NCBI RefSeq assembly: GCF_000003815.2
Contig: NC_049979.1
Location: 4,726,206-4,790,205, forward strand
Source: Branchiostoma floridae
Taxonomy: Eukaryota; Chordata; Leptocardii; Amphioxiformes; Branchiostomatidae
Direction of reading: 5' to 3'
DNA: 64,000 bases
Made by a program: the position numbers and the translations under genes. Within the stretch, counting starts at the first letter, position 1. Each line of letters starts with the position of its first letter. The notes below the pieces were generated by a model that saw only the letters and a program-made list of their open reading frames with translations, was not told the DNA's origin and did no database searches. Positions 29,201-51,300 of this stretch are shown piece after piece.

Positions 29201-31370
29201 ATGTCAGCATCTCCACTGGTCCTCTCCACAAACCGCAGTCCTGACACGTTCGCCCAGACCTCCAGGGCATCCACCAACACCTGATGGACGATGGCATCGT
29301 CCAGGTGGTCACTGCTGGGGTAGTTCATGATCCTGGAGTGCAGACAGTGATCTATAGTCTTAAAACACTCGGAGTAACACATAGCTGCAGCAATATGTAT
29401 GTAAAAGTTGTCTATATAAACTTATAAGACTCATTGGGACTTTAAATGATGTAAACTGTATCTCTGTTATATACTTTGTCTGACCCTTGCCTCTTCCCTC
29501 ATGACCTCAATGAAAAGCAGCCTGCAGGCCAATTTGAGCTTTCATGAATAAACAAAGGTTTAAACAAATAGACAAGAAGTATGCCAGTAATTGCCTCTGT
29601 ATACAGAGTCTATTATGTTTCCCATGTGTATGTTTGTTTGGGTTGGTGTGTGTCTGTTCACCATATAGCGACAGGAAATGATTAATGGGCACATGTAATG
29701 TTGATTAAAACCTTATTTGCATAATCATGAATTACAGTTACAAAAGGCATACAAGAAAACTAAATATTTCATGTAGCAGGGAGATCTTCAAATGCGTGTT
29801 GAGCATGAAGTTGACTGAACACAAATGTATTTTTCAGAATTCTTTGGTATACCAAGGACAATATATATCATATTTTCTACAATGTTCTTGGTGGTTACAC
29901 TGAGATAGAATTATCCTAAAGCCTCTAACTATTAAAGTCACTTAATCTCTAAGCAGATCTAGCTGTGGCATAAGATAGTATCATACATAAAGCTTGGGAA
30001 ATTTAGCTGGCAGAGGAGTTTCCCTCCTTCACTGTGGCCAATGAAACCCCTCTGCCGGCTAAACTCCTTCTTAAGCTTATAAGTTATATACTATGTTATG
30101 CCACAGCAAGATCTGCTCGAAGATTACCTTCCTAAGCTTATGATAGTATCTTATACCACAGCAATATCTGCTTGGAGATTACCTTCCTAAGCTTATGATA
30201 GTATCTTATACCACAGCAATATCTGCTTGGAGATTACCTTCCTAAGCTTATGATAGTATCTTATACCACAGCAATATCTGCTTGGAGATTACCTTCCTAA
30301 GCTTATGATAGTATCTTATACCACAGCAATATCTGCTTGGAGATTACCTTCCTAAGCTTATGATAGTATCTTATACCACAGCAATATCTGCTTGGAGATT
30401 ACCTTCCTAAGCTTTTGATAGTATCTTTAATATAACACAGCAAGACCTGCTTGAAGATTACCTGAAAGACACATCTTTGTTCTTCCACTTGGTCCCACTG
30501 AGAGACAGCTGCCCTGTCCTGCCATACGGGAAGTCGGGCCAGGCAGACTCGGAGTTCGCCATAACTTTGATCATGTTCTGGTCCTGTTGGAGTTCCTCTG
30601 TTGGATCTCTCAGTATCCTTAACCTCCCTTCTCTCTCTCGTCTGGCTCCTCCGGAGTCTGTCGCGTTCCCCACAAAGTAGCCATAATTATTCAGCAAAGC
30701 CTGGAAACAACAATGTTCAGAGGCCTTAAAAAAGCATAAAGGTTTGCTATCATGCTAACGTTATATTGTACTTCATCATTACATTTCTGGCGTGGAAAAA
30801 AAGTCCAGCAAAATAAACAAACTTCAGGGCAGTCGCACTTAAGTTTGCGTTGGAGTTCTTGTTACCTGCGCCTGAAGATCTCTACTCTACTCTACTGGGT
30901 CTACTCTATTTAAATCTTTCATGTTTTATTCGTCTACCTACAAAGTATATAGGTCCAACCAACCCAGAAAGCATCAATTCGAAGTAAACAGATCCGTCCC
31001 TAGAAATGCACAGGAACTCAAGGGACGGAAGAGAGGCAACGTGAGGTCACTTTTACCGGTTAGTCCATGAGATCCAGGTGCAGTAGAAAAGGCCAGAAAA
31101 CTTCACTCGAGTGTACAGTTCAAAGTCGTCTGAATTAATTCGAAAACTAACATGACACTTCCTTGTATAATCAAAATGTCTTGTTTCGTGCGGAGTATTA
31201 AACAGTTTGATATTTTCTTTTTGTCAAGGCTTGAGTTGAGCGAAACTACGTACCAGAGTTTGCTGGAAGTCCCAGATCCGGGCCAAGGGCTGAAGATGAC
31301 CCGCTTCCGTCGGCAGTAGAACCGTAAACAACACGACGCACAGGAGCCTCCAGTCTAGCTGGATAACCAT
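17298..31370 (-). CDS. Secreted matrix metalloproteinase, MMP17/MMP25-like, no GPI tail, no cysteine switch
   Basis: Exons, 5' to 3' on the minus strand: 31370-31254, 30700-30462, 29332-29160 (or 29158), 28527 (or 28519)-28390, 25579-25424, 24973-24861, 23529-23385, 18709-18573, 17912-17789, 17407-17298. Total about 482 aa. Order: signal peptide 1-23 (LLCVVLFTVLLPTEA), short propeptide from NYGYF, catalytic domain from LSLSGTKW, HGDG and GGEYAHAF structural metal site, HFDADE, zinc motif HEFGHALGLSH at about 230-240, Met-turn STIMFPF, Cys-containing hinge, then a four-blade hemopexin domain ending DWMGC-stop. The hemopexin phrases DPGYPRPVSMWHG and FFRGRNYW fit the MMP17/25 group. The switch position reads SESAWPD, with Ser where PRCGVPD has Cys. 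No furin site directly precedes the catalytic domain; RRER lies earlier in the propeptide. The exon 3/4 junction is uncertain by two residues. Confidence 0.9.
18225..18552. mobile_element. MITE with CAGGGTTGGACAAGT ends
   Basis: Left end CAGGGTTGGACAAGT and right end ACTTGTGCAACCCTG, imperfect TIR. CAGTTG flanks both sides. The interior repeats GGCAAGTG words. It sits 20 bp from the splice donor of the MMP exon 18709-18573, inside the following intron. hAT-like by TIR; the target duplication is unclear. Confidence 0.65.
19046..19239 (-). pseudogene. Two tandem fragments of an MMP hemopexin exon 3' end
   Basis: The stretches 19046-19092 and about 19186-19239 repeat the last 45 or so bases of the exon 23529-23385 with its donor (CTTCAGTG/gtgag) and the adjoining intron. 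A third, intact context is at 23286-23430. Each fragment keeps a donor but lacks the exon start. Confidence 0.85.
19240..23276. mobile_element. 4.0-kb non-autonomous TIR DNA transposon with 9-bp TSD
   Basis: Inverted repeats 19240-19349 and 23167-23276 are about 110 bp long and begin AGGTATGTAAGCGTGC. GCAGCATTG flanks the element on both sides (19231-19239 and 23277-23285), a perfect 9-bp duplication. A neighbouring tandem copy at about 19093 shows the same site without insertion. Open frames inside do not exceed about 90 codons and show no transposase, so it cannot move itself. The 9-bp duplication with long TIRs points to a Mutator-like (MULE) element; Merlin is less likely. It lies in an MMP intron and is rich in CpG near its ends. 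Confidence 0.9.
24126..24622. mobile_element. Nested or tandem palindromic MITE (CTCCAAGCAGA type) with gap
   Basis: CTCCAAGCAGAGGTTAGGCTC begins it, CAAGCAGAGGTTAGGCTCCG repeats near 24231, and GAGCCTAACCTCTGCTTGGA closes it at about 24614. Repeats of TATCGGGCTTTCTA and its complement fill the inside. Same family as 1158-1312. It lies in the MMP intron between 24861 and 23529. Confidence 0.75.
24375..24593. other. Assembly gap (219 N)
   Basis: A run of 219 N inside a palindromic MITE. The odd length suggests an estimated gap, probably caused by the inverted repeat. Confidence 0.99.
25684..25722 (-). pseudogene. Partial duplicate of the MMP zinc-site exon
   Basis: The 39 bp repeat the 5' part of the exon 25579-25424 (encoding VNLFQIAVHEFG). 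A copy of the adjoining intron piece (AACAGATTACAACATTCACT) occurs at 25590 and again at 25873. The copy is upstream of the true exon in transcript order and breaks off after the HEFG codons. Confidence 0.8.
26036..26650. repeat. Degenerate tandem repeat, about 150-bp unit, four copies
   Basis: Each unit has a phrase like GCGCTGTATCTC.GGAACG, then ACGATTTTTGGTACGTG, then TTTTGGGCCTCCTGGCGCTTG. Starts fall near 26036, 26190, 26340 and 26480. GT-rich, non-coding. The following 26650-27540 is unclassified intron sequence. Confidence 0.6.
27552..27816. repeat. Direct tandem duplication, 134-bp unit
   Basis: GAATAACACCCCAGAAATAA starts at 27552 and again at 27686. The two copies are nearly identical through CATGTGACAGAGTAACTAC. 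A recent duplication inside the MMP intron 25580-28389. Confidence 0.9.
28133..28335. repeat. Long imperfect palindrome with CTGATGA...CGAAA motif
   Basis: Arms pair GTAGAATGACTGGAAACTAC (about 28190) with GTAGTTTCCAGTCATTCTAC (about 28262) and extend outward through the ACACCATCATC/GATGATGGTGT segment. The right arm holds CTGATGA, a 7-bp hairpin, and CGAAATGTTGG. Confidence 0.7.
28880..29135. mobile_element. MITE-like repeat with GTCATACCTG ends, copy 2
   Basis: Opposite orientation to 12920-13200. Shared parts include CCAAATTTGTTC-like, AGCCTGTGTGATACG, CACCCGTATCGAACG and CACAGGTATGACAT. It ends about 25 bp before the donor of the MMP exon at 29160. Confidence 0.6.
29946..30119. mobile_element. 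MITE of the CCAAGCAGATC type
   Basis: Inverted arms: AAGCAGATCTAGCTGTGGCA at the left and TGCCACAGCAAGATCTGCT at the right (about 30100), with a second inner inverted pair (GGCAGAGGAG/CTCTGCC, TTAGCTGG/CCGGCTAA). Relatives are at 33447-33652 and 39683-39846. Confidence 0.75.
30121..30458. repeat. 55-bp minisatellite abutting an MMP splice donor, six units
   Basis: Units start at 30121, 30176, 30231, 30286, 30341 and 30396 with AGATTACCTTCCTAAGCTTA. The unit is the right end of the adjoining MITE. The last, diverged unit runs into AGATTACCTG, which on the minus strand is the donor CAG/gtaatct of exon 30700-30462. Confidence 0.9.
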
Positions 31371-32099
31371 GGCGCAAGAGTCCTGGACAAAGACCCTGTT
31401 TTGGCACAAGTATCAGTCAAGTGAAACCATTTTAGGGCCCGGTGTTCCCTCGTCGCTCAGCCACAGGCCGTGACCTCTTTCCCAGTCTTGCACCGTAACC
31501 CAGGCCTCCAAAACTTCAACACCCACACCACACGAGGCCAGTCATGATCTCTGGGATCCACAGACAAGGTAGATATCCTGCTGTGGAATAGAACAGGAAC
31601 CTTCAAACCAAGAAGAACCACTCTCAGATCACAGGCACCGACCGCACACACAAACACAGACGTTCCACAACCTCCACAAGGGGATGCAGCTTGCCCTGCC
31701 GAATCACTTGTGTGGAACTGTTAATAGCGGGGAGATTCAGATATAAATAGTCTGGGGCTAAGCATTGGAATTTTCCTCATCAGAGACTTACAATTCCCAA
31801 CTATAGGTCATAAATGAAGATATCCAACCGAAGAAAGCAATGTTTGCAGCATGACTGACCCATGACTCAGTGAGTTCAAAATTAGTTTGAAGCTTGGTTG
31901 ATAGCTTCCCGCTGGATTGTGGACAATCCCCAAGGAAACTGAGATGTTTCTTCGAAGTGTCAGACCCGGGGCTGGGCTTGGGGCATCTTGCGTCATCCTT
32001 CACAGTGTCACAGACAAACCAAGTGCGTGCCGTGGCGGCAAATATGAACTGTGCAACTTAATACTAATAATAGACGTCTATCTCTGATATACTCTCTGA

Positions 32100-33041
32100 T
32101 GCAGCTTCCTGACCGACCGGAAACAAAGAGTCCTCTACAAAGGAGTTCACTCGGATTGGTCAGTCACTACCTGCGGCCTTCCGCAGGGTACGGTCCTTGG
32201 TCCCCTGATATTTCTTGCCCTTATTAACAACGCCAGTGTAGACGCCTTAGCAAGAAGGTGGAAATTTGTCGACGACCTTAATCTAGCAGAAAGCCGGAAA
32301 ATCAGCGTAACCTCCAACCTCCAAACCGACCTCGACAATCTCGGCACCTGGACAGAAAGTCATAAAATGAAGCTAAACCCAAAGAAGTGCAAAGCAATGC
32401 ACGTTTACTTCTCTAAAGTCCCCCCGACGCTACCACCTTTATCTATCGCTGGTGAACCACTGAACATAGTCAAAGTCGTTAAACTACTTGGCTTATTTGT
32501 ACAAGCGGACCTTGGCTGGCAAACTCAAGTTGACCACGTACTGAAGTCAGGTAATAGAAAACTATTCCTGCTCCGACAGCTACGACGTCTCAACCTTTCT
32601 CAAGAAGACCTTCTCACCTGTTATAAGACCTTGGTCCGACCGGCTTGTGAGTATGCCGTCGCTGCCTGGCACCCGGGCCTCACAAGAAAACAGCACGAGA
32701 GAATCGAGACCATACAGAAAAGGGCTTGCCGGACAATACTAGGCCCCGCATACACATCCTACTCAGAGGCATGCAGTGTTCTTAACCTACCTACACTAGA
32801 AAGCCGTCGCCGTCAGCTGTGCTACAAGTTTGCCAAACGCCTGCTACATTCAGAGACCTTTCGAGACTGGCTACCTCCATACCGCGGTGAGATCAGCGTC
32901 AGAACTACACGGTCATCACAACTACTGGACACTATAAAAACCCGTACAGAGAGATACAGAAGAAGCCCCATCCCTTACATGACGAACCTTTTAAATGAAC
33001 TGGACTCATGCCATATGACTTCCGACTTCCCCCTGTTTTAA
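32100..33041 (+). mobile_element. 5'-truncated non-LTR retrotransposon, CR1/L2-like reverse transcriptase fragment
   Basis: An open frame runs from just after a TGA at 32097 to a TAA at 33041. It holds the late RT palm: SFLTDRKQRV, CGLPQGTVLGP, the active-site motif FVDD (family usual YADD/FADD), KLNPKKCKAM, LGLFV, then the thumb-like region with CYKTLVRPACEYA and LNLPTLESRRRQL. The fingers and the catalytic Asp before them are missing, as is the endonuclease. A GC-richer codon use than the neighbours and an uninterrupted frame suggest a fairly young copy. 33042-33440 is probably its 3' UTR. Confidence 0.85.
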
Positions 33042-33446
33042 AGTTGTAAGGTTGTGCATCTTGCGACCTTGCATTAGTGTTAAGTGATGTTTGCATAGAA
33101 ATCCCAATTGGTGAATCAGATTTACAGTGTTTTGGATTTCTCTTCTCGTGCAATATTGACGTGCAATACTATGATATGATAATTATCACTTACTTTGTTA
33201 GTTTATAAATTCTATTGTAAACAACATTGCGACAACTTCTCCCTTTTAAACTTTGTATACCGTGCAATAGTGTGTGCGATAATTGTAAATACTCACCGCA
33301 ATTCAGTCACTACAACGACTGCAAGTGTGATGTTTCGTTTGTAATCGCTATGTCTCTATGTCCAATAAACCATTCATTATATGTCAAACTTCATCCTTGG
33401 TGCGAAAAGGTGGGGTCATCGCCTAAGATTCTAACATGAAATAATC

Positions 33447-33652
33447 TCCAAGCAGACCTTTCTGTGGCAAATGGGAAGGAGTTTAGCCGACACTGAGGAG
33501 TTATTGGCCTTCGCTGTGGCCAATAACTCCTCTGTCGGCTAAACTCCTTAACATACATTTGCCACAGCAAGATCTGCTTGGAATAACTCCTCGGCCGGCT
33601 AAACTCCTTCCCATTTGCCACAGCAAGATCTCCTTGGAGATTAACATGATAC
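33447..33652. mobile_element. Palindromic MITE, AATCTCCAAGCAGA ends
   Basis: ATAATCTCCAAGCAGACC at the left, and GATCTCCTTGGAGATTA at the right. Inside, TGGCAAATGGGAAGGAGTTTA and its complement, and CGGCTAAACTCCTT twice, make nested hairpins; part of the right arm is duplicated. Confidence 0.8.
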
Positions 33653-34351
33653 GGCAAATATCTCATCTTTCCAGTTCCAGGCATTGACTTTTTTCCCACC
33701 CAAAGAGGATTCAAATAGTGCGCAAGGCGAGGCGAGTTGATTTTTCTGCTTTCCGATATAATTATAAGTGCCTTGGCCAAATTCCTCTATCATATTAGGC
33801 CAAGGAGTCTGGTAGAGACTAATGATTGGCGCTGGTGGTGAAAAGTGGTGGTCTACGGTGCCCCCAGAGACACACTAAACGTCTTTATCCACCGTGACGT
33901 TTTAAAGCGTGCCAGCCACGTGTCAGCTATCTGTCAACGACATACTGCTTACTAGTAATTCGGCAAGAAAAGGGGGGTATGGTGTGTAGAATGTAGATAG
34001 TAGATGCCATGCGCAAATAATCAAATGTAAAGACTTCCAGAAAAATTTCATTTTCAAGCTTCAGAATAAGTCGAGCGTTTTCTCCACTCCCCCAATCCAA
34101 GTTGAAATGTTACGAGGATTTTTTCGGTTGCCGAGGACCATGTTTTATTGTTGGCATCGACGAGAAACTAATAATGTTATATTGTCATAAAAATCGATGA
34201 GACACAGAGAGCTCGACAGTGTACACTAGATACAGAACATGACAATTTCAGTTCCCTCCACATTTATTAACCACATCCGTTTCATCCGGTCGGGGAGAAC
34301 GCTTTCTCCAACTTTGATCTCTGAACTTTGATGAAGCTTCTTCCGTGTCTG

Positions 34352-35735
34352 TTAAAGGGGCATTCCACTCCAGGAGGGAGTGTTATTTTCCAATAGACAA
34401 TCAATGAATACATGATCAGCCGACCTTTTGTGGAATTTCACTTGTGGCGAATTACGCAACGTGTGTTTGTAAAACAATTTGACACTCACTAAACCCATGC
34501 AGACCCTACCCATGTATTTCCTATACGTGTAGACACTTCCTTTATCGTGAATATTTTCAGCATAAATGAGGGGCGCTTAGCACAACAAGAAGGTCAATTG
34601 AACACATAACAAGACGTGTTTTTCTTAGCGACCCTGAAATTAGCTTTGTAACCTATAAAATTACTACAGCTATTGACAACAATGAATTTACCATAGGGAT
34701 AGTTTTAGATCTAAGTAAGGCATTCGACACGGTAAACCATTCTATTCTTCTCAAAAAGCTAAATAAATATGGCATTAATGACACGGCACTCAAGTGGTTT
34801 AAGAGCTATCTATCTGATAGAAAACAATATGTCACCCTCAATGGCTATACATCTTCATGCAAACTGATAAATTGTGGAGTTCCCCAGGGATCAATTCTGG
34901 GACCCTTTTTGTTTTTGATATATGTTGATGATCTTGCTGAAGCATCCAAAATATTCTTTATTATCCTATTTGCTAATGATACAAATCTCTTCCTCTCACA
35001 TGCAGACTATGATTCGTTAATATGTCTAACCAATCAGGAATTAGAAAAAGTCATCACATGGTTCGAAACCAACAAGCTATCTGTTAATATTAAAAAGACG
35101 TACTATCTTATCTTTTGTAGTAAAAACAAGACTTATAATAAGAAAAATACCAATATCTTCCTAAAGAACCTTCCTCCCTCCCAAGAATGCCAGGCTAAGT
35201 TCCTAGGAGTACTTATTGATGATCGACTATCATGGAAACCCCACATTGCTATGATATTAAATAAAATTTCAAAAACTATCGGGATCATAGGGAAAATTAG
35301 ACATCTTTTATCCCAGAGAACCTTAATAACCATATATAACAGTCTAATCTATCCATATCTCATTTATTGTAATATTGTTTGGGGAAACGCCTACAAAACT
35401 TCTCTACACCCTTTATTAATTCTACAGAAAAAATTTCTACGCATTGCGACATGTTCGAGTTTCCATACTCACTCTTCACCACTATTTGAGAAAAAACAAA
35501 CAAACCTAACTTAAGTCAGATGTTGCCAGGCACATTGTATTCAGTCATAGGCTGAGATTGATTAATTTAATTAGAGGGTACTTGGGGAGTTTTCTAGAAG
35601 ACTGAATGCTTTTTGATGCGCGTGGGGCTAATGGGTACTCTATCGTAATATGTTATGTAACATACATTTGTCACTTCCTACAATTAATATCTATCGGAAA
35701 ATAACAGTCCCGTCTGGAGTAGAATGCCCCTTTAA
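34352..35735. mobile_element. TTAA-flanked TIR element carrying a LINE fragment
   Basis: Ends are TTAA/AGGGGCATTCCACTCC and GGAGTAGAATGCCCCT/TTAA. The inverted similarity extends about 45 bp (GTTATTTTCCAATAGA against TCTATCGGAAAATAAC). TTAA duplications are typical of Kolobok and piggyBac transposons; the AGGG end fits Kolobok better. No transposase is seen. Most of the inside is the LINE fragment 34570-35514. Confidence 0.8.
34570..35514 (+). mobile_element. Non-LTR reverse transcriptase fragment with mutated active site
   Basis: The frame is open from after a TGA at 34567 to a TAA at 35514, about 314 codons. It covers IGIVLDLSKAFDTVNHSILL (first catalytic Asp region), WFKSYLSDRKQYV, CGVPQGSILGP and LFLIYVDDL. 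The active site reads FANDT, where the family has FADDT, so the enzyme should be dead. LGVLIDDRLSW and YNSLIYPYLIYCNIVWG follow. The frame stops early, within the RT C-terminal extension. AT-rich codon use, unlike the LINE at 32100. Confidence 0.85.
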
Positions 35736-36004
35736 ATATACACATACCTCCAATCATTATCCATATACAGAAAGACAGACAGACAGACAGTATTATTTTC
35801 AATGTACTGCATCAGCGTTGTCATTTTAAATTAAACATCCGCACTCTCTAGGCCTGGCTACATTGAAAGGATACCATTGACTGAAGCTATTCAAATAGTT
35901 ATAGAAGCTATAGTCCCTACCGCCACCACACAGTTGATTACAAATCGAGCGTTACTTATCGTCGACGTAAAAAGAAACATTGCCTGTATTGAAGACTACA
36001 CGTT

Positions 36005-36992
36005 AAGCTAGGGGCACAACCCGCCGTACTTGCAAGAGCGTGCTGTCTACGTGCCAAAACGTGGGCAATCTTTTGGTATCCGTAAGTAGTAAGTACCGTC
36101 TCCGTACGAACACGTGGCGAATCCCACGGATTTGGGAGCACGCAGACACGCCGTAGAAATTTAAGTGCATGCAGAACTTTCTCTGCTCTCGGGCTGCAGT
36201 ACGTGCCAGTACGGGCGACGCGCCTACCCTGTACAGCCAATGAGCGCACAACGCACGGGCTCCGTGAGTGTATCAAAGTTTTCTCACAGTCAATTGCTGT
36301 ACGGACGGCGCACGCAGAACGTGCGAGCTGCGCACGTCGTGATTGCGTGTTCCGTGCTTCCTTCGCGCTTCACTTGTTCACCTGTGAATGCCGACGCACA
36401 ACACATCTGCACTGTAATGAGGGAGCAGGTGCTCCGCACGTACAACGCACGTGGCAAGCACATGGTTTCTGCAGTATATAAAACCGAGTCAACGAAAGAC
36501 TGCCAACCCGTCTCCAAGATTCGTAAGAAGACGCACTGAAGGAGCCGTCAGTTGCATCGGTACCAGCTTCGACCAGAGCCGCCGAAAAGAAAGACCTTGA
36601 AAGGTCGTCCTATATATACATCCCCGAAAAACTTGCGTTCATCGCACTTGAACGCACTTACACCATGCGAGTAAGGAAACCGTACTTAAGCAGCACGTGT
36701 AGGTAGGGCCTGCATACGTCAACGTGGCAATCGCACAGAGACCGTACGTTGTAAGCACGTGCAACTCACCTACCACTTGCGCAACGAACGATGAACGCAA
36801 CCGCTCGCAGCCAGGCGTGGCGTGCAGACCTCGTACTTACACCTTGCGCAACCGTGCGAGTGACGTGCGTTGACGTACTCCCTCCCTGCTCTTGCCAGTC
36901 GTTCCCCATGTTTTCAGAAATACGTGGCGGACGTGGCCTCCCAAATAAACGTACGGGCAATTTGCACGTACGGCGGGTTGTGCCCCTAGCTT
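36005..36992. mobile_element. About 1-kb GC-rich TIR element, AAGCTAGGGGCACAACC ends
   Basis: AAGCTAGGGGCACAACCCGC at 36005 matches the complement of GCGGGTTGTGCCCCTAGCTT ending at 36992, about 30 bp in all. The inside is rich in CGTAC/GTACG/ACGTGC words and codes for nothing recognisable. The target duplication is unclear. Confidence 0.8.
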
Positions 36993-37088
36993 TACTGAAA
37001 CAGCACGGGTAGATTGTCCTGGAGCTGCTGGAAAAGAACATTGGTTCTAAAGGACGTTGCTCTGCAAAGAATAGTCGGCTTTTACTAT

Positions 37089-37261
37089 CCTCTACCAGAC
37101 TATGCGGATCGGTGGTCTAATCATGAGTAGAAATTGGACAAATAGAGTCAGTAGTACGTGTGGAAAAAACTCCTATGGCCGGCCGACTCTCCTAGCGTGC
37201 CCTTGACTCTATTTGTCCAATTTCTACTATAAGACCACCGATCCGCTGAGCCTGGTAGAGG
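37089..37261. mobile_element. Palindromic MITE, CCTCTACCAG ends
   Basis: Left arm CCTCTACCAG, GCGGATCGGTGGTCT, AGAAATTGGACAAATAGAGT. The right arm is the complement and ends CTGGTAGAGG. The loop has ATGGCCGGCCGACT. Confidence 0.85.
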
Positions 37262-38223
37262 CTTGGCTTTTACATGTCAACTTGACTTTGATACTGGCTG
37301 AGCGAGGCGGCCAAGGGTGACATTCACGACGTGGCCACCGTGTGTACATTAGTCATTCTGTAAAGGTTTACTTTTCTGATCATTCTTTTGTCTTCTTTGT
37401 TTACTCTCTTTGAAAAAGTAGTCATTAGTTACCAAGGGAAACCATCAACTAAACAAACGAATTAATGGTAATGCACTAGCTAGCGGCCAACAACTATGGC
37501 ATAGTCGCTGGTTACTGGCGAATAGAACTAAAAGCTTACAAATATGTATTAAAAGGTTTAAACCACCATGACCACAGTTGAACCTTCATTGTAAGCGGTG
37601 CATATGGTATGGTTTAGGGCCTGCCTTGTTTCAGGCAAATCGTGGTCCTATCTGACGTCGCTGAACTTTTGAACTCGGCAACGTTAATTGTTAAATGTTT
37701 GAACTTAAGTGTGACTGTTCAAAGGACCTTTCTTCAGTTCCCACAATATGTGTTCATTGTGGTTACATTCTACCCACGGGTTCGTGCCAAATAAAAGTAG
37801 TTGACATGAACCCTGCCTACGGACTCTCAGTCATGACCCTAACATGTACTGCAGGGAGGGAAAGGTGGGCGGTGACTCTTTTTTACGACTTTTCAAAAAA
37901 GATGTCTGTCTGGTAATCAAACAACGCTTTACCAAATAAGGCGTAACGGTGATCTCATAGGTGATGTCATCCAACCGACGCTAGCTGTAAAATGGAGCAA
38001 TCAGACGGCGAGGTTAGGCAAACATGTGCACATTCACCTGGGTTAATATTAACTGAAGATTCAAAAGGGCCAATCACCAAGTCGTCTCGTGGTCGTTTGA
38101 CCGTTACACGTACCCCCCTTTCCTGTGCGTCCTCCCGGAGTCGGCAGTGTGGTAAAGGCGGCACATCTCCCAGGAACTTCTTAGAACTTGTAGAATCCAC
38201 TCAACAACATTTGCTTAGAAAAG

Positions 38224-41200
38224 ATGCAGCGACTCCTTGTATTCGTGTTCTTCAGCCTCATGGCGGCTACAGGTGAGTTTTGACACATTTCTGTTTCGTC
38301 TGAAGACACTCCCCAATAGCCCATGCTGCAACAGGTGGGTGATTTAAGCTCTTTTCAACTTGAGCCTTGTTCTGCATGGCTGAAGACCTTCCTTGCTCTT
38401 AGGGCCACACGGAACTTTTAGTACCTTTTATGCCATCTCCACAACAAATGTAGCAAATAAGATTACGTTTTTGCTCAACTTGGTGTCATTTAAGAGCAGA
38501 ATAACTGGACAGTTGAAATGGCTATGTTACCGCCATTTTACAACTGTGCGGCGGTTATTTGCTCTGGGGTTCGTGTTGACTCACTAGAGAGCAAATTAGC
38601 CCTCCATCTTTGACAATCCACGGCGCACATTGCAATCCTTCGGTTGGCGCTTGCGAAAGGGCGGTATGTATGAACTCCTCTTCAATGGACGGACACAGAC
38701 AGCATCTGGACATCTTCATGTCGGGTCGAGTTGAGTCGAAGTTAACCTGAAAAGCGAAATGAGAAAAACTAATGTGGAGACTATCGTCGTTTTCATACGC
38801 AACTGGTTAGAAGGCCTGGTTAAAAACTTGAACAATAGTTGTAAAGAGGATTCACAATGTTGCGCCTTATGTCTTACCAAGGAGCTTACATTCCTTTTAT
38901 GTGACATTTTTTACCTGATTCATTTTTGAAGGCTCCAGGATTTTGGACGCAAGACTTTATGAAATCTAACTAACGAAAGCAACTCTGCGAGAAACAGCTT
39001 AAAATTTGAAAGATATAGTAAGATATAGTGAAGTAACAGGTAGCTTGATATGACCTGCGAACTAACAGATTTCCTTTTGCACTTCCATCATCCTAAATCT
39101 CTTCTGAGGTACTTAGGAGAACTATAAAACTAAATGTATATGCATTCCCAAACATCAACGGACGGAATACTACACTAAACTCCACAGTGACCACATTTAC
39201 ACCTGCAATATCACGGTATAAATGCTTTGAGGTGTATGTGCGGATCTCCTGTTCCCGAATAAGCTTCTATCCAAGATGCCTTCCCGCCTCACTGTTCATG
39301 ACCCTGAAGCAGCAACACCTTCGGAAGTGCGAGTTCGAAATTGTTGTTGAGGATGCTGACAACGGTTGTCAGTTCACATTCGAATTGAAACCGTATTTGA
39401 CAAACACGACATCTGTTTTGTCTGCTCTGCGGTTTGCTCAGCCATATGGCGGTTAGAATCGCACCTTGACCAGATCGATATGTAGACCACGGGATTGAAG
39501 TCTGGGACATCGTCTCGTGTGGCAACGGTTGCTTTAAAGCAGCGCGGTACGGCGGGGTTAATGTTTTACAGGTAACGTGGACCCAGTACAAACAGCTTAC
39601 TCATTGGTTACTCATGGATAGACGGGAGAGGCCTGGTCAGGGTACCCATGAAATTCAGCCCCAACTTTGCCTGTACCACAATCTCCTGAAGAAGATCTTG
39701 CGGTCGCATAAGATAGTGTCATAATCTGGGGAAGGAGTTAAGCCGGAAGATGAGTTTTATTCAACCGCGAATGCCGGCTAAATTCCTTCCTCAGCTTACG
39801 ATACTATCTTATGCCACCACAAGATCTGCCTGGAGATTACCTGTACCAGGTACTGGGTTCAAACGGCGTGTGGAAGTGAAAAAGATGACGTAATACCTGA
39901 CATGTAACCAAGTCAGTTGATGCAACAACCAAGCTATCTTGAATCATTGGGTCGAGAGGTCCTTAATCTCTATGAATCGATTTTAGTTGGAGATAACAGA
40001 AATGTTTCTCTGCCTTTAGAGTTCAGTTCATCTGTAACGTTATACTCAATGGACCATTGCAAAGTGAACAGGTACACCTGTTATAAACCGCCTGTAGCAA
40101 TAGGTGAACCATGCCTGTTAGTTTTTGTTGGTTGTGCCAACAAAGGGGCGATCAACTCGCGCCAAGAACAAACAGCGGGCGGCCCTCAGCCGTGTAGTGT
40201 TGTGACTCCAACTGGTACCAAAACGCGCTCGCGTCACTGCCTTGTTGATCTCTTAATTAACTACCCAAATCTCAAGGACAAGTGTTGTGACTCCTAATGG
40301 TACCATGACGCGCTAGTGCCTTGATGATGTTATGCATCAAAATACCAAGGACACATGCTATTTGGTGTTTCGAACTGTATTGTTCAATAACGATTAAGAG
40401 GCTGTTTTCAAAGTCCCCCACATGATGCATACCCCTTATTGCACAACTAAGACTTTCATTCAACACGGCACATTTTGTCATTTTTACGGTGACCAGTAAT
40501 TATGATTTCAATCGTGAAGACGTGGAAGTCGAAGCTTTTATAGACCACACTCTGTCTTTAGTACCCTTGTTTTACATTCACCTGATTCCGTGATGTAAAC
40601 ATTTAACACATTCTGGGTTTCTGACACGTGCCGAGTCACTAACTAACATTACCACAAGGTAACGGCACAATCCGTACTTGTACGAAATCAACTTCTATTT
40701 GAACTTCTCCCAAGTGTTAACGTTTGTACTGACCCGACTGATCGTCGAGTGAATATGTTGTTACAATGGCGCGAAAAATTGTTCTAAAGTTACACATGTG
40801 AAACTGACATGGGCGTGACAGCAGTTGCATTAAATTAAACCGTGCGGCCGGTAACAGCAAAAGCGACGTTTAAAACGTGCAAACCCACACGAAACGGCAC
40901 GCAAGAAAGGGATGTTAGTCGACAGGAAGTTGGATGAGTAACAAACTAAACATACAAACACTAACGTTACTCCATAAATCTGACTTAACCGGGTTATTTT
41001 GTTGAACCAACACCTGCGTGCTTGACAGCTTGTCGTGCAGAGTCAGGCACGGACAGGACCAAACAAACTTTTAAGTCCCCCTTCCTGTATGACGAGCGAT
41101 AGTAATATACCGTTTTAGACACATTACTTCCCTCTTGAATGACTTATTTATTGTTGGTTTATTGTAAAATATTTAGACTTTTACAGGAAATTTCAACTAT

Positions 41201-44200
41201 GCTTTTATTGGTCCGTCATCAATGATCAATGGCAGGCAATGCGTACCCATCAATTAGACATAGATTAAGTAGACATAGATTTAGAATTGATGTTATTTCC
41301 CTCTTAATTTATCTATAGATCTTATTCTCCGTCTTTGTTCAGTCGTAGACGAATTATGTATACCACAGCTCTGCTTTGTTTGCAATTAACCTTCGGGCAT
41401 GATCTTGCAGTTATTATTATCATTATTATTCTAACTCTTCAGTCTCATGAAAAAAGTGATGAGAATAAAGTACTTTTCAAATTCACTTCCGAGACTTATA
41501 TACAGTAGTTCACGAGAATTCACGAAATTAACTTGTCTCATGAAAAAAGTGATGATAATAGAATACTTTTCAAATCCACATTTACATACATACAAGTTCA
41601 CGAGAATTCACGAAACTAACTTTGTGTTTGTGTTCTGATTGAAGCCGTGAGAGCCCAGCTGTCGATCAGCGGCGGTAGTACGGCGGTGCAGGAGTCCATA
41701 GGCCGAGCAGTCACGTTGACCTGCACCTACTCTCTAAGCGCAGGCTACACCCTACGTGAGATCAAGTGGTACCGGGTGAATGGCGAAAGAGACCCCGTTC
41801 TATTCTACTATCCTGGCCAGTCTGCGTACACGTACGGGTTGTACAGAAACAGGGCTAGCCTGGTCAACACGGATGACAGCGCTCAGGTGGCCTCCCTTCG
41901 CCTCAGCAACCTGCAGTTCAGCGACAATGGCACCTACGAGTGCCTGGTGGGAGCGTTAAATGGGCAGCCTGCGGAGGAATCTGTCCAAATTGATCTGGTA
42001 GCTCTGGGTAAGCTGTGGCTTTGGATAACCCTCCATAGCAGGCTCTCTGGGGTTCTTTTTTGGGCTCATATATACTTTTGTTGGCCATTTCTTTTTGCAC
42101 TGGATCGCTGATTTACTGGGTAGTAATCAGCGACGGCCGGCAATCAGCGACCTAGTACAAAAAAAAAGGGGCCAGCAAAAGTGTATTTTGAGCAAAGAGA
42201 GCCTGCTATGGAGGATAGACTTTTGTTAAAACTTTACATGTACTTCTATTTGTTTCTGTAGTTGACTGATCTGGATCTACTGTTGCTCTGGTTCTGGATG
42301 AAAAATGCCGTTAGAACTTGTAAATGATTAAACCCTGTTTTCTAAGCCTCTAAAATAAGATCTTTTTAGACTTTCGGTACTCCACAAGTAAAGAATGAAT
42401 CTACACGACCAGCTCATTCACATCGTGTTCATTTCCTCGCTCCCCATCTGCAGTTGCTCCCAACGATCCTGTGATCACCGACGAGTACAACAACGGCAAC
42501 CTGACGATGACCTGCACGGCGTACACCGGCAACCCCGCCGCCAACCTGACCTGGACCCGCGACGGCTCCCGGGTTTACCACGACGTGGCAGAGAACATCA
42601 CCAGCTGGCGAGGATACCTGGACGCCCAGTCCATCATCAGCGTCACGGCCAGCACCGCACAGTCCTCCACATTCCAGTGTGTGGCTCAGCATCCTGCCTT
42701 CACTGCCGCCCAGAGGGCCTCGGTCACTGTCGGTACGTTCAACATAGATGGTGCAGTGGATCAGGGTGGTCATGAATTTATGGTAACATCAAATAGCAAA
42801 ATAAGAAGTATCGTAGGGAAGTAAAGCTTGAATGTCGAAAATGTTTTGTGAAGAAGGCAAAGGACTAGAGCTTCATGGTCAATTGACATATCTGAGATTT
42901 TGAGCATCTCTTTATCATAACAAAGACAGTAAAACTGAACAAGTGAAATATCATGCAATGCAATTTAGCAATTGATTGATGCAATTGTACTTGACCAAAA
43001 TGATGACATCGTGTTGTAAAAACTTTGTTTATTCCAGGATCCCCCACAGTGTCCACAGTCAACATCAACCCAAGCCCGGTTCCAGGGGAGGCTCTGCAGG
43101 AGCTGGATGACATCATCCTGACCTGCATGACCCAGGAGGGGATCGTCCCCCAGCCCACCTACCAGTGGACCCTGGACGGTGGAAATGTACCTGCCAGCGC
43201 ACAGGCGTACAGGAACGAGCTCAAGATCTTCAGTGCACAAGTAGAGGACAGCGGCATCTACAGCTGCACTGCCAGAAATGACTTTGGCTCTGACAGTGGC
43301 GATGCAACCATTCTGATTGCAGGTATGTATGACCATACAGCAGAGAAGAAACGTTTCCTTCCTCTAAAGGGAATGTCTTGTCCAAACAGAAGACAATGAG
43401 AAATGATGAGAGGTTTACAGCTTTTCTGGCTAACATAGATGACACGACAAATGTACAGACTCGCAGATGTTTGTATGATTGCCACCATTTCTTGGGCTTC
43501 TAAATGAAAACTAGAACTCACCATGACATAATTGAGATTCTAGCACTCATGACGGTAGTGCAGAAGACATAGAACAAATGGTTATCATATTCATAATCTT
43601 AACATAAGTGAGAAAAGTATTTCTATGACCAACAATACCCTTTACATATCTTTCCTCTTTTACAGAACGAGACACTAACATTGTAGAGCCTCAGACAGGT
43701 GAGAAAGTAACCTTAACAATCATCCTACATAGATCAGTAACATATTTGCACCAATATCAGGGACAGAGATTTATTCAAGCATATAATAGTTGATATTGTC
43801 TGCCTGCCACTTTTAAGTGAGAAAATGACAATTTGGAATAATGATGTCCTATCAGAAATAAAGGCAGCAACAATCTAGAATCAGGAGAAAGTGGAGCATG
43901 ACAGAGCCCTTCTTATCACTTTATTAGATGCTATTCAGGGCCATTTTTGTACTCCAAAATCTGTGTTATCTAGCCTTGTGTTTAAGCAGGCCTATTTGGG
44001 TTCACAGGCACTCCACCTGGTACTGTGGTGGGCATAGTGATTGCAGTTCTTGCCGTTGTTGCTGTGATCGTTGTCATTGGATTTGTGTGCTGGCGCCGGC
44101 GACAATCAGATGAGCTCAAGATTCCCCCAGACAGGTGAGAGAACGTCACCTTTCTGATTTTGCTTTGCCTGTAGGCTCGCCTGTGGGGTCAGTAGTCGGT

Positions 44201-45625
44201 GGGGTGGTGGCAGCTCTGGCCTTCCTGGTCCTGGTCGCTATTGTTGCATTTGCATGGTGGCGAAGCAAGGAGAGGGGAGATTACCACACCGCTGAGCAAA
44301 GGTGAGGCTGACTGGGAGGGTAACACAGGCACAGGCATGGCACATCTTCAGCTACCCAGTCCCCATTATGCACACTCTGGAGGTACTTGTGAGAGTGCGT
44401 GGCGCAATCGGCAGCGCGTTCGGCTCAGGCCCAAGAGGTCCTGAGTTTGAATCCCGCTATGCCACCAACCTTGTGCCCTTGGGAAAGACACTTTACACGA
44501 CTTTCTCCACTTCAGTCAGGTGAAAATGAGTACCTAGTTATAGTAGGCTAGGGATGTCCCTCAGATAGGACATTGAATAAAGACTGTGCCATAATTATCA
44601 ATATACACATGATCGTGGGCACTAAAGGAAGAAAGAAAGAAAGAAAGAAAGGTACAGGTCCTGAAGCATCGGACCCTTGCAAGAAATTCAGAAGGGCTAC
44701 CAACACTCATTAGATACATCTGCATGCATATTGTTGCAGCTATATGTGCCCCTATGAATTACAATCATTGGTAGCCCGAGTGTCATCCTATAGTTAGTTT
44801 ACCGGGGCTACCATACAACCCCCTTGTAAACTAACAACATGAAGTAGGATGGTACTCATGCTAAGTCAAAGTAGCCATCAATGCAACAACTCTGATAGAT
44901 GGAAACTGGTGGGTTATTGTTGCTAGACACAGTTTCCACATGTTTCATGGGGATGATAATACTAACACAGTGAGACATTTCTTTAATTTCTTTGGTACCA
45001 ATTGAAATTTTATACTCAATGCAGCCCCGAAGAGCCAACAGCAGTGGTGTCAACAGAGCCTGAGGATGAAAAGGATGAAGAGAAGCTCAATCTAATGGTG
45101 AGAACATGTGATTTGAGGAAGTCAGACATCATTTGCTTCATCCTTAGCAACATCATCATTGGGAACATCAATATTGAAGCATGATGGCAACATCAATATT
45201 GTTACTTTCAATCTCAAACTCACTGCAGGAATAGCCAAAAATCTGAAGTCATCCATATCTTCTCCATCCAATCTGAATTTATTGGAAATACACTCTTTCC
45301 AACCAGTATTCCCTTAGGTAACATTATGACTATTACTCCTGGGTCATTGTGAAGGTATGGTAGATTTGGATCCTTTTTATATTCTTCCTGTAACTTTTGG
45401 TGCTGTCCCTGCACCATCAGTTCATGTTTGCACCACCATGCAAACATTAGCCTGTATCATCTATTACCAAACACAAGAAATCTGTTTTGTGCCCTGCATC
45501 ATGGTTTGTTCTTTTGATCCCCACAGGAGGAGAAGAAGGAAGAGGAACCTGAGGTGAAGGTCGAGACCCAGGGTGAAGGTCACGCAGAGGTGGCGAAGAA
45601 GCCAGATCCAGACCAGACTGCCTAG
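38224..45625 (+). CDS. Single-pass IgSF cell-surface protein (V-C2-C2-TM-acidic tail), 435 aa
   Basis: Exons: 38224-38272, 41645-42007, 42454-42732, 43038-43322, 43666-43698, 44008-44134 (or the alternative 44175-44301), 45025-45097, 45527-45625. Signal peptide MQRLLVFVFFSLMAATG. Ig1 is V-like: VTLTCTYSL, IKWYRV, DNGTYECLVG. Ig2: LTMTCTAYTG, LTWTRDG, FQCVA. Ig3: IILTCMT, YQWTLDGG, DSGIYSCTARNDFG. Each Ig domain is one phase 1-1 exon. A ten-residue spacer exon, a TM helix (VVGIVIAVLAVVAVIVVIGF) and a WRRR stop-transfer follow; the tail is Glu/Lys-rich and ends DQTA. The plan resembles nectin/CADM/JAM-type adhesion receptors, but I cannot assign an orthologue. Intron 1 is 3.4 kb and could hide an unseen exon. 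Confidence 0.85.
38273..41644 (+). other. Intron 1 of the IgSF gene
   Basis: No coding exon recognised. It holds a MITE at 39683-39846, repeated GTACCA-CGCGC words near 40210-40310, and a short direct repeat near 41445 and 41535 (TCATGAAAAAAGTGATGA). Confidence 0.5.
39683..39846. mobile_element. MITE of the CCAAGCAGATC type
   Basis: TCCTGAAGAAGATCTTGCGG and GCATAAGATAGTGTCATAA at the left pair with TTACGATACTATCTTATGCC and CAAGATCTGCCTGGAGATTA at the right. Inner pair: AAGGAGTTAAGCCGG/CCGGCTAAATTCCTT. Confidence 0.75.
42029..42214. mobile_element. Palindromic MITE, CCTCCATAGCAGGC ends
   Basis: CCTCCATAGCAGGCTCTCT at the left, AGAGAGCCTGCTATGGAGG at the right. AATCAGCGACGGCCGGCAAT lies near the centre. 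It starts only 22 bp after the donor of the first Ig exon. Confidence 0.85.
44175..44301 (+). CDS. Alternative transmembrane exon of the IgSF gene
   Basis: A ctgtag acceptor and a CAAAG/gtgag donor bound 127 bp, exactly the length of exon 44008-44134, with the same phases (1 in, 2 out). It encodes GSPVGSVVGG, a hydrophobic run (VVAALAFLVLVAIVAFAWW) and RSKERGDYHTAEQR. The cytoplasmic end differs from the first version, which reads WRRRQSDELKIPPDR. Only 40 bp separate the two exons, and joining them to each other would break the frame. So each transcript should use one or the other. Confidence 0.8.
44392..44545 (+). mobile_element. tRNA-derived SINE, copy 4
   Basis: GGCGCAATCGGCAGCGCG (A box), CTGAGTTTGAATCCCGC (B box), then TTGTGCCCTTGGGAAAGACA and ACGACTTTCTCCACTTCA. 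The best preserved of the four copies. A GAAA microsatellite follows at about 44629-44651. Confidence 0.85.
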
Positions 45626-46460
45626 ACACCTTCCCTCACTCATCTTACAGCCTCCACAAGGAGACAAGTCTAGCGAATTGTGTACAATTTTAATAGCCTA
45701 AGACGGCTTTAAATAACTGATTCACAGACAGCTGTTTGTCTTCGATCCTAACTTAGCTTGAGTTTACTGCTTTTTCAATAGTGCTCCTCTCATGATAGGC
45801 AATTGTGCTGTTGTTTCCTTCCTCCGGCAGTCTGTTGCCATTTCCTATGAAGATGACAATGAAGTAAAGCTGCTCTTTTGTTGGTATTTCTAAGCTTTGT
45901 TATTTCCTTTACTGTTGGATAACTCCAAACGCCAAGAACCTTATTCAGATTCAGACCAAGATAAACCGGTTCTCCTGCAATCATGGCTTTATCATTGAAA
46001 AAAGCTGATATGGGCTTGTTTACTGTCTAAGAACAGAGAAGAGTTTGATAATGAGAACTGCTTAAGATATTTTGGAGAATTGTAGAATTTGTACCTTTGA
46101 TAGTTCCGATAATGATGATGACAATGAAGGAAATGGGGACATACGTAATGATGGGCGATAAAATTAAACATTGCCCAAAAATTGTGCAGTAAACTAAATG
46201 TTTTGCAGTGAACTACATGTATAGATAACTAAGACCTAGTTTTTTTCTTCTTTTATGTGCAGGTAAGACATGAAATACTAAACAATTGAAAATAGTTATT
46301 GTTAATAGCATAGTGAAGAAACCTCAATTGACATGTCTAGGTAGCTTACAGTGGAAAGTTTGGAAAAGTAATCGTATTTTGAAGTTTTTTAGTGTGTAAA
46401 CAGCTATTTTTGAGTTTTTATGGCTTGTAGTTGTCTAGCGTCGCAACTTGGTAGATGTTG

Positions 46461-46683
46461 GTAACAGTAGTTCACCTTTATCCACATGGTAACCTATATC
46501 CGTTGTTTTTAGGAACAAGGTATGTACAGATATCTAGTCGACGGACGTCGGTTTCAAACTGCAATATTTTTATAGCATTCGAGTCTGAAACACCCGTCTG
46601 TCAACTTGATATCCCTAAATACCCCAATTTAAATACAACGGATAAAAGTTACCCCAGGGATAAAGGTAAACTAATGTTAGAGT
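46461..46683. mobile_element. MITE with TAGTTCACCTTTATCC ends, copy 1
   Basis: Left AGTTCACCTTTATCCACATGG, right GGGATAAAGGTAAACTA. In the middle TTTCAAACTGCAATATTTT and a complement-like GAGTCTGAAAC make an inner hairpin. Same family as 48105, 55292, 59946 and 62560. Confidence 0.8.
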
Positions 46684-47481
46684 GATGTGTCAGCCCTTGT
46701 TGCAGTTGTTTTACAGAAATCTTTTGAATCTTTGATGACTGTTACCGTTGTTTAATGTCGAAGTGCACTCAGTCAAGGTTGGGGAGTAATCTCTGTACAC
46801 ACCTAAGAACAGTAACAGATTTGCATATGACCAAATGACCAAAAAACATCGCAGTGACAGTTTGAGAAAGAATTAAAATGCTCTGTGTGCCTCGCGGCTT
46901 TTTAATAATAACGTGTCATGTCATGTTTGGTTGTCTTTCTATGCATACACTTCCTATTTGTTTTCCACTATAGCGTATACCTGAACACTAAGAAGACATG
47001 TGAGGAAAGGTGCTATATGTCTTAACCTCTTTCAACAACTAAGGGGAACTCTTTCAACAAGTAAAGTAGTCAAAGTTTTTGATGCTACAAAAATGTCCCA
47101 GATGCTACAAAAATGTCTTTCAGAAAGTGTAACTTGTTCAAGAAATTGTCCTTCAACAACAAAGGACAAGAAGTTAATTGTAGTTGTTGCAGCAAAGCAT
47201 ACAACATTAGACTAAAATGGAGGAGTAACACTACAAGACTTACAAAAAAATGTAGTACAATTTTTGATGAAAGTGAAAGAATCACATCAATAATAGAGCC
47301 ACTGACAATAACCTTTTTCACCTTGATATTTAATAAATCACTGGTGGGTTTTCAAATGTACAGTAGTAGTTGGAGTGAGTCCATGTGCTCCCAGGAGGTC
47401 GCTGCTGGCTGACTGATATGTGTGTGGTTATGTAGAAGTGCAGCATGGGGCTGCAATCGGGGGGTCGGAACAACCAGAAAC

Positions 47482-47898
47482 TAGGGGTGGGTACCGGTAC
47501 AAAACCGTTTTTTTTAATTTCTGGACCGGTCCGGAAAAAAGGGACCTGAAAAAATCAGTGTACCCGACTTAGACCGATTAAAAAATGAAGACACAATGTC
47601 AGCAGGCATTTACATGTTTTGGGGCTTACCGCCTGATACCGATTCAAGAAAATAACGAGCAAAGTAGACTAGAGTTTAAAGTCATTTCTACCATGTTTCT
47701 ACAGTTAAACCTACAGAGGCAGTTAGCCTTGTTTACAAGGATTTTGAAACACCAGAGGGAGTTGGATGCTCCACCAAACAGATTCCTTTGTAGCAAAATT
47801 GACCATTGTTTAAGTATCTCCATTGACAAGTTTTCACCATTAGCTACAGGTTCACGTCCAGACCTAGACCCGATCCTCTGGACCGGTACCCACCCCTA
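47482..47898. mobile_element. hAT MITE, 417 bp, 8-bp TSD
   Basis: Ends TAGGGGTGGGTACCGGT and ACCGGTACCCACCCCTA. CCAGAAAC directly flanks both sides (47474-47481 and 47899-47906), a perfect 8-bp duplication typical of hAT. No transposase. Confidence 0.9.
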
Positions 47899-48104
47899 CC
47901 AGAAACCTAATATCCAGATTTGCTTTACATGTTATGGCAGCCTTTGTAACTACAGACTGCATAAGGAGATGGGACAATATCATTTTTGGATACATCTTTT
48001 TTTATAAGTGTTTTTTGAGTGATTTCTCTACTGACATGCCTTCTTCCAAGGTATTCAGCAGGGTTTTGTTCTGCCCAGTGACACAAAGCTCAAAATTTAT
48101 ATCT

Positions 48105-48331
48105 GTCGGTTAACACTAGTTCACCATTATCCGCGGGGTAACCTATATCCATTGTTTTTCAAAATAGGGTGTTTAGGCACATCAAGCCGACGAGTGATAG
48201 TTTTAAACTGCAATATAGTGAAAATAGTGCAATTTGGAAGCATCGTCCGTCGACGTGAAATCCTCAAATACCCTGTTTTTTAAAACCAATGGATATAGGT
48301 TACCCAACGGATAATGGTGAACTAGAGTTAA
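48105..48331. mobile_element. MITE with TAGTTCACCTTTATCC ends, copy 2
   Basis: AACACTAGTTCACCATTATC at the left and GATAATGGTGAACTAGAGTT at the right, with CCGCGGGGTAACCTATATCC and its complement just inside. Confidence 0.85.
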
Positions 48332-51300
48332 CCAATAAGGGATGCATTATTGATCACTGGCTGTGATTCATTAAAAAAATTTCCCCACTTTCAGACAATG
48401 AAAAGCAGTACCAACACTTCCTATATTTGTTTGATTTTGTGAACTGGTAAACAGCTTGGAGGTCTTTGAAAACTATGGGCAAAATTCATATATATTCAAA
48501 GGGTGTCTGCAAAGTATGTTAGGGAAGTTTAGTCAAAGTTACCCATGGAAGAAGGCAACATGAACTGTTACCAGCATGCTAACACTGATGTATCTGGGCC
48601 CTGGCTCTTCAGAAACACTAATTAGTAACTTTTTTCAGGGGTATTGCAACCACTCAATGTACAGCCATAGGGTATATTAACAACTATATAGTCAATGTGG
48701 TGTCTTTATAAAGCGTTTGAACCATGTTCTCTCACTAATATATTGTTCTTAAGCTTCTAATATATACAAGGTTAAGTTTGCAGTGCATTCATATCATGTG
48801 TCTATCATGTAAGTCTTGTTTTGTGAAAGTCCAGTACATCTTTCTACACCACTGTACAAACTCATTAGCACCATGCTTTAGTAACACCCCGGTTTTTACC
48901 ACAAGTGGTTGCAATGTTGCAGACCCCAAAAATACATACAACGAGAAACCTCATGTTCTAAATTTATGCGTAATCTATCAACATAGTTTTTGTTATAGCA
49001 ATAATCCAGGTATTTCTCCAGGCAGATTTAACTGGTCAACTCCACTTCTGGTACAATAGGATTTGGCCAAATGTATTCACTTCCTCTCCTTTTTGTCTGA
49101 TCAATGTGTTTCATGACAGGGTGAATTGTTAACGTTTTTCTAAAACTTTTCTAATATACACAAATCAAACTAATATTTGTTTCCTACTCCAATCCTGGAT
49201 TACTCAAATATGAGACGTGTTTTTTTTGGGGGGGGGGGGGGCGAAACGAGTCTTAATGTTTACAACACATGAGGTGTACCCCATCTAGTGTTAGGAGGTC
49301 TCGGAGGTGCTAGCAGTGTGTCAACTGGCAGCAGTTGTAAAGGCACTCTGTGGAGCAAGCTGCCAATCTTCAGGCGACGTCTTTGGCCTTTCCCAGAACG
49401 GAGAGGACCTGAACAGAACCAGAGTTTCCACCATGCAAGTGTCAGTTGTGTACAACACCCGTCAGCCAGCAGCAGCCTCAAACACCGTGGACTCAGCACA
49501 TGGGTCAGTGTGGGCAAGTCCCTCTGTGTACAAATGGAAGCTCTTTCCTAGCCTTACATAGTACCAAAGCCCATCCACAATGGCCTACTTGACGTTATTA
49601 TTAGAGATTCTAGTACTTTGTTAAACTTGATGTAGTCCTGCCACCTCCTCTTCAAGCATCACACAGGTCTGGAAATTACAACATGTACGTCTCCCCTCTC
49701 TGTTGGCGCATTCAGTTATCAGTTTTCAAACTACAAGCATTTCCAGTACATGAAAATTTCCCCCTATTACCTAGTAACATCCTTCAAAAAACCAATTTAT
49801 CAGAAAGTTTTCAAAAACCTACCTAGAGAAATGTACATATACTATTATAAAGGCATGGAAATCATACATTCTATCATCCCTGGAAATTCATACATAAGAT
49901 GTATAAAACTAGATACTTGTCTACACATAATAATTTCCAAGTCAGGACAGCTTGCACTTAAGCAATAGAGTTACAGCAAATACGTTAAGGCTTGATAAAC
50001 TCAGAAATCAATTCAAAATATACAATAGCTGCACCATATCCGTATTTTGTATGCAAGGTTACTCATAATGTGTACCTGATGACAAGAGTAGAGTTATTCC
50101 CTCTTAAACCGTACCCTTAGATTTGCTATGACAGATATTCATGAGTTTCATTGTGAAAAAGAGAAAATCTTGCATGACAGAGGAATTATTACAATAGATC
50201 AAAGAAAATTTGACACCTAGAAAGTATGGTGCAGTAAGAAAAAATAATGTATAAAACATGCACCTTTTTAAACTGCAAGACCATGTCTTTCTTTACAGCT
50301 CTTGGAAGACAATATATATTTATATATATTATATATAATTTCATTGCACCGAGTGTTAAATCATAGAATTTACATCCATGGTGAGGTTTACAGTTAGATA
50401 TTAGTCTTTGCTCACTTAACCGACATTCAATAGTAAAAAGAGTCAACATTCAATAGCATTATTTGTCTTCTACAGGACTGGACTAAATTTGGGGAGACCT
50501 CGCACACTACTGGCAAAACAGATTATGTTCATCAAAGGCCAGAGTGTTATATGAAAGTGTCATATTGTAGATCTAGACGTAACGGTTTGGATGAAATAGC
50601 CAGGCTCTGGACCTTATATCCCACTAACAATGGTCTACATCAATAATTATACTATCGCCTTTTCACAGATTGAAGGGAAGATTCGGTAATTTTTACATGA
50701 AACTGTTAAATGCGTCAAAGTCAACACAGTCCATGTGAAATTTGTTTTTGGTAGCAGGATACCTTTAGAAACATCATGACGTTGGGAAACAGACTTAGTC
50801 TAATAGGTCCTCTTGGAAATGGAGCAATGTGGAGCAACATTACCACGCTTTGGGCCTCAAACATATTATCACATACATCTATTTTCCTTGATAGAAGGTG
50901 ATGATTAATGATTGATTAATCATTGACTGATTGAGGGATTGATTAACACTCTTTTCTTCTGAATTCTTCCTTTTCTGTTTAAGATTTGTCCTGTTAGTAG
51001 TTTATTATCCGAACCCAATTTTTTAAAATTCTATTGATGTAGCCCTTAGCAGGAACCTGCAGAATCTAATGTCAGCCATGAGGAAATGATTCATTCCTAC
51101 TTCCATTAGTCTACTCTTGAAATATGGCACAAAGATGAATTTTGGCACAGAGATCTTTGGAGAAATCCAATATATTTGTTTTGATATTCGGAAAAGTCGT
51201 CAGCCTTTTGGGGCTGCTAAACACTTCAAAGTAATGGTCCAAACTTTCAAAATCAACAACATAACAAAAGCGGGTCAAGTTTGCAGGTATTGACCAGACA

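Follow-up and report, generated by a model that had tools for sequence, protein, structure and literature searches.

The window, by which we mean the whole 64-kb stretch of Branchiostoma floridae NC_049979.1 that was analysed, contains on its plus strand an open gene encoding a signal peptide (in a predicted exon), three immunoglobulin (Ig) domains, an 11-aa stalk, a transmembrane (TM) segment, and an acidic tail (Table 1; all exon positions are positions in the window). The signal-peptide exon is one of two candidates detected in a scan of positions 30000-41640, the chosen candidate being the one that joins Ig1 in frame. In Ig1, the Pfam V-set match covers residues 13-106 of the query protein. 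Two introns of the gene contain repeat-like structures. In the Ig1-Ig2 intron (42030-42214), perfect 19-nt inverted repeats enclose a second pair of 38 nt with 76% complementarity, and this structure is possibly a small mobile element. Downstream of exon B, the intron holds what looks like a tRNA-derived SINE (44386-44640), with A- and B-box-like stretches and a terminal GAAA-type repeat; ARAGORN found no tRNA in the window, this element included, and Rfam at gathering thresholds gave no matches within the window.

Table 1. Parts of the Ig-superfamily receptor gene and their positions in the window
Feature	Position	Strand	Evidence or remark
Predicted signal-peptide exon, MQRLLVFVFFSLMAAT...	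38224-38272	+	phase out 1; in-frame join to Ig1
Ig1 exon, V-set	41645-42007	+	frame, splice sites, Pfam
Ig2 exon, C2-set_2	42454-42732	+	frame, Pfam
Ig3 exon, Ig_3/I-set	43038-43322	+	frame, Pfam
Stalk exon, 33 nt, phase 1/1	43666-43698	+	skippable, frame unaltered
TM exon A, GTPPGTVVGIVIAVLAVVAVIVVIGFVCWRRRQSDELKIPPD, 127 nt, phase 1 in / 2 out	44008-44134	+	frame, splice sites, tblastn
Spacer, 40 nt, contains exon B acceptor	44135-44174	+	branch-point-like A 13 and 22 nt past the A donor
TM exon B, GSPVGSVVGGVVAALAFLVLVAIVAFAWWRSKERGDYHTAEQ, 127 nt, phase 1 in / 2 out, 4.1/FERM-like motif	44175-44301	+	frame, tblastn, motif likeness
Tail exon 1, phase 2 in / 0 out	45025-45097	+	frame
Last coding exon, C-terminus PDPDQTA and stop	45527-45625	+	frame

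Elsewhere in the window, exons of a gephyrin/MoeA-like gene are found on the minus strand (58039-61255; MoeA_N 7.5e-11, with a second MoeA_N match at 2.5e-5 and MoCF_biosynth both below the cut-off), together with a matrix-metalloprotease catalytic exon (25365-25850, minus strand; Peptidase_M10 3.7e-16), two plus-strand reverse-transcriptase frames (32100-33038 and 34570-35511; RVT_1 1.3e-10 and 1.5e-21), and a tandem array of 12.8 copies of a 29-nt unit with 99% match (57421-57792).

The two TM exons, A and B, are bounded by ttcacag/GC...GACAG/gtgaga and cctgtag/GC...CAAAG/gtgagg, respectively. A preliminary description of this DNA had claimed that they share length (127 bp) and phases across a 40-bp gap, that both encode a TM helix followed by different cytoplasmic starts (WRRRQSDELK in A and WWRSKERGDY in B), and that inclusion of both would break the frame. 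The first point is exactly so in the sequence, the two exons are confirmed as related TM segments, and the computed A+B product ends early, with a stop near the end of exon B. Translation with exon A alone or exon B alone yields 435 aa with the same tail, the frame being open from the signal-peptide exon through the stop in the last exon. With both exons the product is 418 aa and its stop lies 79 nt upstream of the last junction; with neither exon a frameshift leads to 359 aa lacking a TM segment, with a stop 2 nt upstream of the last junction. Skipping of the stalk exon leaves all these outcomes the same with a product 11 aa shorter, and retention of the spacer brings a stop one residue beyond the last whole exon A codon. 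Two marks of a mutually exclusive pair are present in the locus: the neighboring exons are homologous and agree in length and phase, and inclusion of both or of neither breaks the frame.

Homology and age of the two TM exons

When the 64-kb window was searched with exon A in tblastn, exon B was matched (E = 3.7e-7, 33 residues), and the two exons are identical at 14 of 43 residues in ungapped alignment. The A/B alignment score was reached by none of 20000 segment-wise shuffles and the A/B identity by 31 of 20000; these shuffles and the tblastn match rule out a chance likeness of two hydrophobic helices. Nei-Gojobori comparison over 41 codons gave pS of 0.72 and pN of 0.42. Split by region, the 28 outer and TM codons gave pN of 0.34 and pS of 0.61, and the 13 juxtamembrane codons pN of 0.60 and pS of 1.02 (silent sites saturated); the lower pN in the former and the high pN in the latter indicate that the anchor was kept and the cytoplasmic start diverged. 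Judged from the sequence, the pair is an old duplication, since silent sites are saturated while the frame, the helix, and the splice sites are kept.

Both copies also look selected, as judged from one genome. A neutral simulation of a duplicate copy was carried out in 20000 runs (no indels modelled) with a varied share of sites kept. Without memory of the original, the frame and splice dinucleotides survived at a frequency of 0.0003, and in none of the 20000 runs did they survive together with the TM helix. With 40% of the sites kept the corresponding frequencies were 0.022 and 0.004, and with 60% kept they rose to 0.089 and 0.053, in which case the argument is weaker.

The A/B pair is present once in a DNA search of the 513,431,437-base genome (431 contigs); a second pair was not found by this search, in which repeats and very frequent words are passed over. 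A hydropathy scan of the plus strand at 41000-50000 gave three other stretches near the pair, none of them A- or B-like. A candidate origin of the pair is an unequal exchange at the similar donors of the stalk and A exons, but with the splice signals trimmed off, the spacer shows no clear likeness to the stalk-A intron (score reached by 157 of 2000 shuffles).

Splice signals, the 40-nt spacer, and the choice between exons

The donors of A and B rank at percentiles 99.7 and 99.8 among the GT sites of the window plus strand (matrix scores). For acceptor pyrimidine content, B is at percentile 92 and A at percentile 53, the latter equal to the acceptor of tail exon 1. The candidate branch-point-like adenines in the spacer (Table 1) are 26 and 17 nt from the B acceptor. 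A passage of PMC7969005 cites a proposed mammalian steric limit, by which the 5' splice site and the branch point need a distance of about 50 nt. The entire spacer measures 40 nt and its predicted branch points fall within this mammalian limit, so that the A donor and the B branch point would not be usable together. There would be no space for U1 on the A donor plus U2 on the B branch point simultaneously, and since both could not fit, each transcript would join the stalk exon to A or to B. Any frameshifted A+B product would, as its stop precedes the last junction by 79 nt, probably be destroyed by nonsense-mediated decay under the 50-nt rule. We consider it probable that the exclusion of A by B and of B by A is steric.

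The anatomy, the frame, the splice signals, the shortness of the spacer, and the fact that coding has been preserved since an old duplication support the earlier claim that these are mutually exclusive TM exons, and the claim that near-membrane sequence is swapped under the same Ig head can be made more specific here, exon B having a 4.1/FERM-binding-like motif and exon A being without it. As a full-length protein is predicted only with exactly one of the two homologous exons, which match in length and phase, A and B are very likely used in a mutually exclusive manner. Against this reading count the average pyrimidine tract of the exon A acceptor and the finding that, among the three relatives in the genome with an identified TM exon, none has two intact copies.

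The exons might be mutually exclusive for a reason other than the short spacer, with splicing factors that differ between cell types, or RNA structures that compete, making the choice; we regard this as rather unlikely. Steric hindrance is named for Dscam1 exon 17 in a reference title within PMC7969005, where it is reportedly combined with RNA secondary structure, and this speaks for such a contribution; in the window, however, pairing of the spacer stays within the shuffled range for the stalk-A intron (reached by 48 of 300 shuffles), the B-tail intron (83/300), the Ig3-stalk intron (128/300), exon A (75/300), and exon B (50/300); for the two flanking introns paired with each other, 22 of 100 shuffles reached the observed value. 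No exon-choosing RNA pairing rose above first-order Markov shuffles.

It is improbable that one exon alone is used in practice, its partner being a leftover or a noise exon. The C17 paralog described below, with one intact TM exon and a truncated copy, shows that copies of this exon decay, and the exon A acceptor is unremarkable; yet both copies in the window retain frame, helix, length, and splice sites despite saturated silent sites. Still less probable is that A+B or neither-exon transcripts are a regulated product, the former leading to decay and lower output and the latter to a soluble receptor. The A+B stop, 79 nt short of the last junction, would suit the decay route, and the 359-aa protein without a TM segment, whose stop lies 2 nt before that junction, would evade decay by the 50-nt rule, but these products would require splicing across 40 nt or the passing over of both TM exons despite their good donors. 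Taken together, we favor the view that one three-Ig adhesion receptor gene probably gives rise to two membrane-bound isoforms via mutually exclusive tandem TM exons, with the motif-bearing isoform B perhaps coupled to the cytoskeleton.

Relatives in the genome and the motif in exon B

Near 13.16 Mb on C17 (minus strand) lies a paralog that has Ig1 (there split across two exons), Ig2 (46%), and Ig3 (46%) in common with the window gene, and EPQT is common to the two stalk exons. It has one intact TM exon of 114 nt (phase 1 in / 1 out) that ends in RRRKQSQDEE and aligns with a score of 37 to exon A versus 14 to exon B, and a truncated, decayed copy of the TM exon lies 170 nt upstream of the intact one. 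At C17:13157460-13157850 (minus strand), a short cttag..gtaag-like stretch precedes each of the two copies, the first being a possible 9-nt microexon. One TM-like exon was detected in a C14 relative by hydropathy scan and one TM exon in a C16 gene by likeness; a C2 locus showed no clear TM exon. The count of TM exons covers the C17 paralog, the C14 relative, and the C16 gene, and C17 loci near 13.27, 13.31, 13.37, and 13.41 Mb lie outside it. The decayed C17 copy together with the A/B pair would mean, by this reading, that the TM exon was duplicated at least twice in the gene group.

The C16 locus (near 11011340; about 8841-9025 of excerpt L030) encodes in one open frame a TM segment, ARHKGDYKTNEE, and a terminal KNKEWFI, and is presumably a CADM-like gene, as judged from CADM features. 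Exon B carries the protein-4.1/FERM-binding-like motif KERGDYHTAE, and exon A (WRRRQSDELK) is without it. When KERGDYHTAE was compared with RHKGDYKTNE of the C16 gene, the B score was reached by 2 of 3000 shuffles versus 684 of 3000 for the best score of A, a comparison that is post hoc because the C16 locus was picked after being seen. In random 15-residue peptides, the pattern G.Y...E occurs at a frequency of 0.0013 and G.Y.T.E at 6e-5. Exon B with 15 tail residues gave a weak match to the TM/juxtamembrane region of neurexin-1 (sequence E = 0.003, stretch E = 0.05); the best match of exon A was TNFRSF13C (E = 0.026), and neurexin-1 is absent from its 16 matches up to E = 10. A genome-wide search with exon B returned six matches at E of 1 or below, i.e., itself, exon A (0.017), three other TM-like segments (0.056, 0.364, and 0.729), and the C16 locus (0.48).

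This evidence for the motif in B is modest. In isoform B a protein-4.1/FERM contact at KERGDYHTAE would tie the Ig head to the cortical cytoskeleton, and isoform A would be without such contact, so that splicing would set the anchoring of the same adhesive head. On motif likeness, 4.1-type coupling by B only appears evenly balanced. Somewhat more tentative is the full proposal of a chordate adhesion receptor that toggles its coupling to the cortical cytoskeleton by TM-exon swap, with B 4.1-anchored, A free, a spacer too short to be spliced out, and an origin independent of arthropod Dscam exon 17.

If confirmed, the locus would give an invertebrate chordate a compact means of switching one adhesion receptor between an anchored and an unanchored form, and it would be an independent parallel of Dscam1 exon 17. 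The A versus B comparison would then provide a built-in contrast, and the 40-nt spacer would serve as a natural test, on a very small scale, of whether the exclusion is steric.

Comparison with known systems

Nectins have isoforms with different TM segments and tails, and in PDB matches of the window gene nectins align over all three domains. The gene resembles CADM and nectin-like proteins in its three Ig domains, single TM segment, and short tail, but its best PDB match is CD276 and not CADM, so that any family name would be provisional. CADM1 carries a protein-4.1-binding motif (in a passage of PMC3913574), and CADM1/3 are named as 4.1N partners in a passage of PMC8473747 that does not give the motif; in the window gene a juxtamembrane stretch with likeness to this motif is found in exon B only. 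Unlike CADM with its class II PDZ-binding C-terminus, the gene ends in PDPDQTA, and a scan of 44300-50000 with two patterns found no PDZ-type last exon; the separate C16 CADM-like gene has both a 4.1-like motif and the KNKEWFI terminus. Parts of PMC7286890 describe nectin splice variants as common and mention an IgV/IgC/IgC/TM/SH3 protein of the Florida lancelet; the Pfam matches of the window gene include no SH3 domain.

OGDH exons 4a/4b are mutually exclusive, with intron branch points less than about 50 nt from the donor (passage in PMC7969005). The likeness to the A/B pair lies in duplicated exons separated by an intron with branch points close to the donor (predicted here), but OGDH is a vertebrate enzyme with a longer intron, distant branch points, and no TM segment.

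The closest counterpart is Drosophila Dscam1 exon 17, for which passages in PMC8787164 and PMC1397879 describe two alternative TM exons used one per transcript with the same ectodomain. Both systems have a tandem TM exon pair in an Ig-superfamily receptor, one-per-transcript use being our inference here. Dscam has many Ig and many fibronectin III domains, unlike the three Ig domains of the window gene, in which no fibronectin III domain is among the Pfam matches up to E = 0.1, contrary to the domain composition of the Dscam family. The Dscam survey, in the part of PMC1397879 consulted, concluded that Dscam exon homologs outside arthropods are not mutually exclusive, so that the A/B pair would be an independent case, and that part of the survey reports no vertebrate tandem array of such homologs except titin matches. 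In titles and abstract openings, a description of this gene was not found among the matches listed for amphioxus mutually exclusive exons or splicing, nectin/IgSF, and tandem TM-exon duplication, and the matches for tandem exon duplication with TM and adhesion concern Dscam. The pair is real and most likely consists of mutually exclusive TM exons like arthropod Dscam exon 17, a kind of system already known, and the new part seems to be that one TM variant brings a cytoskeletal docking motif.
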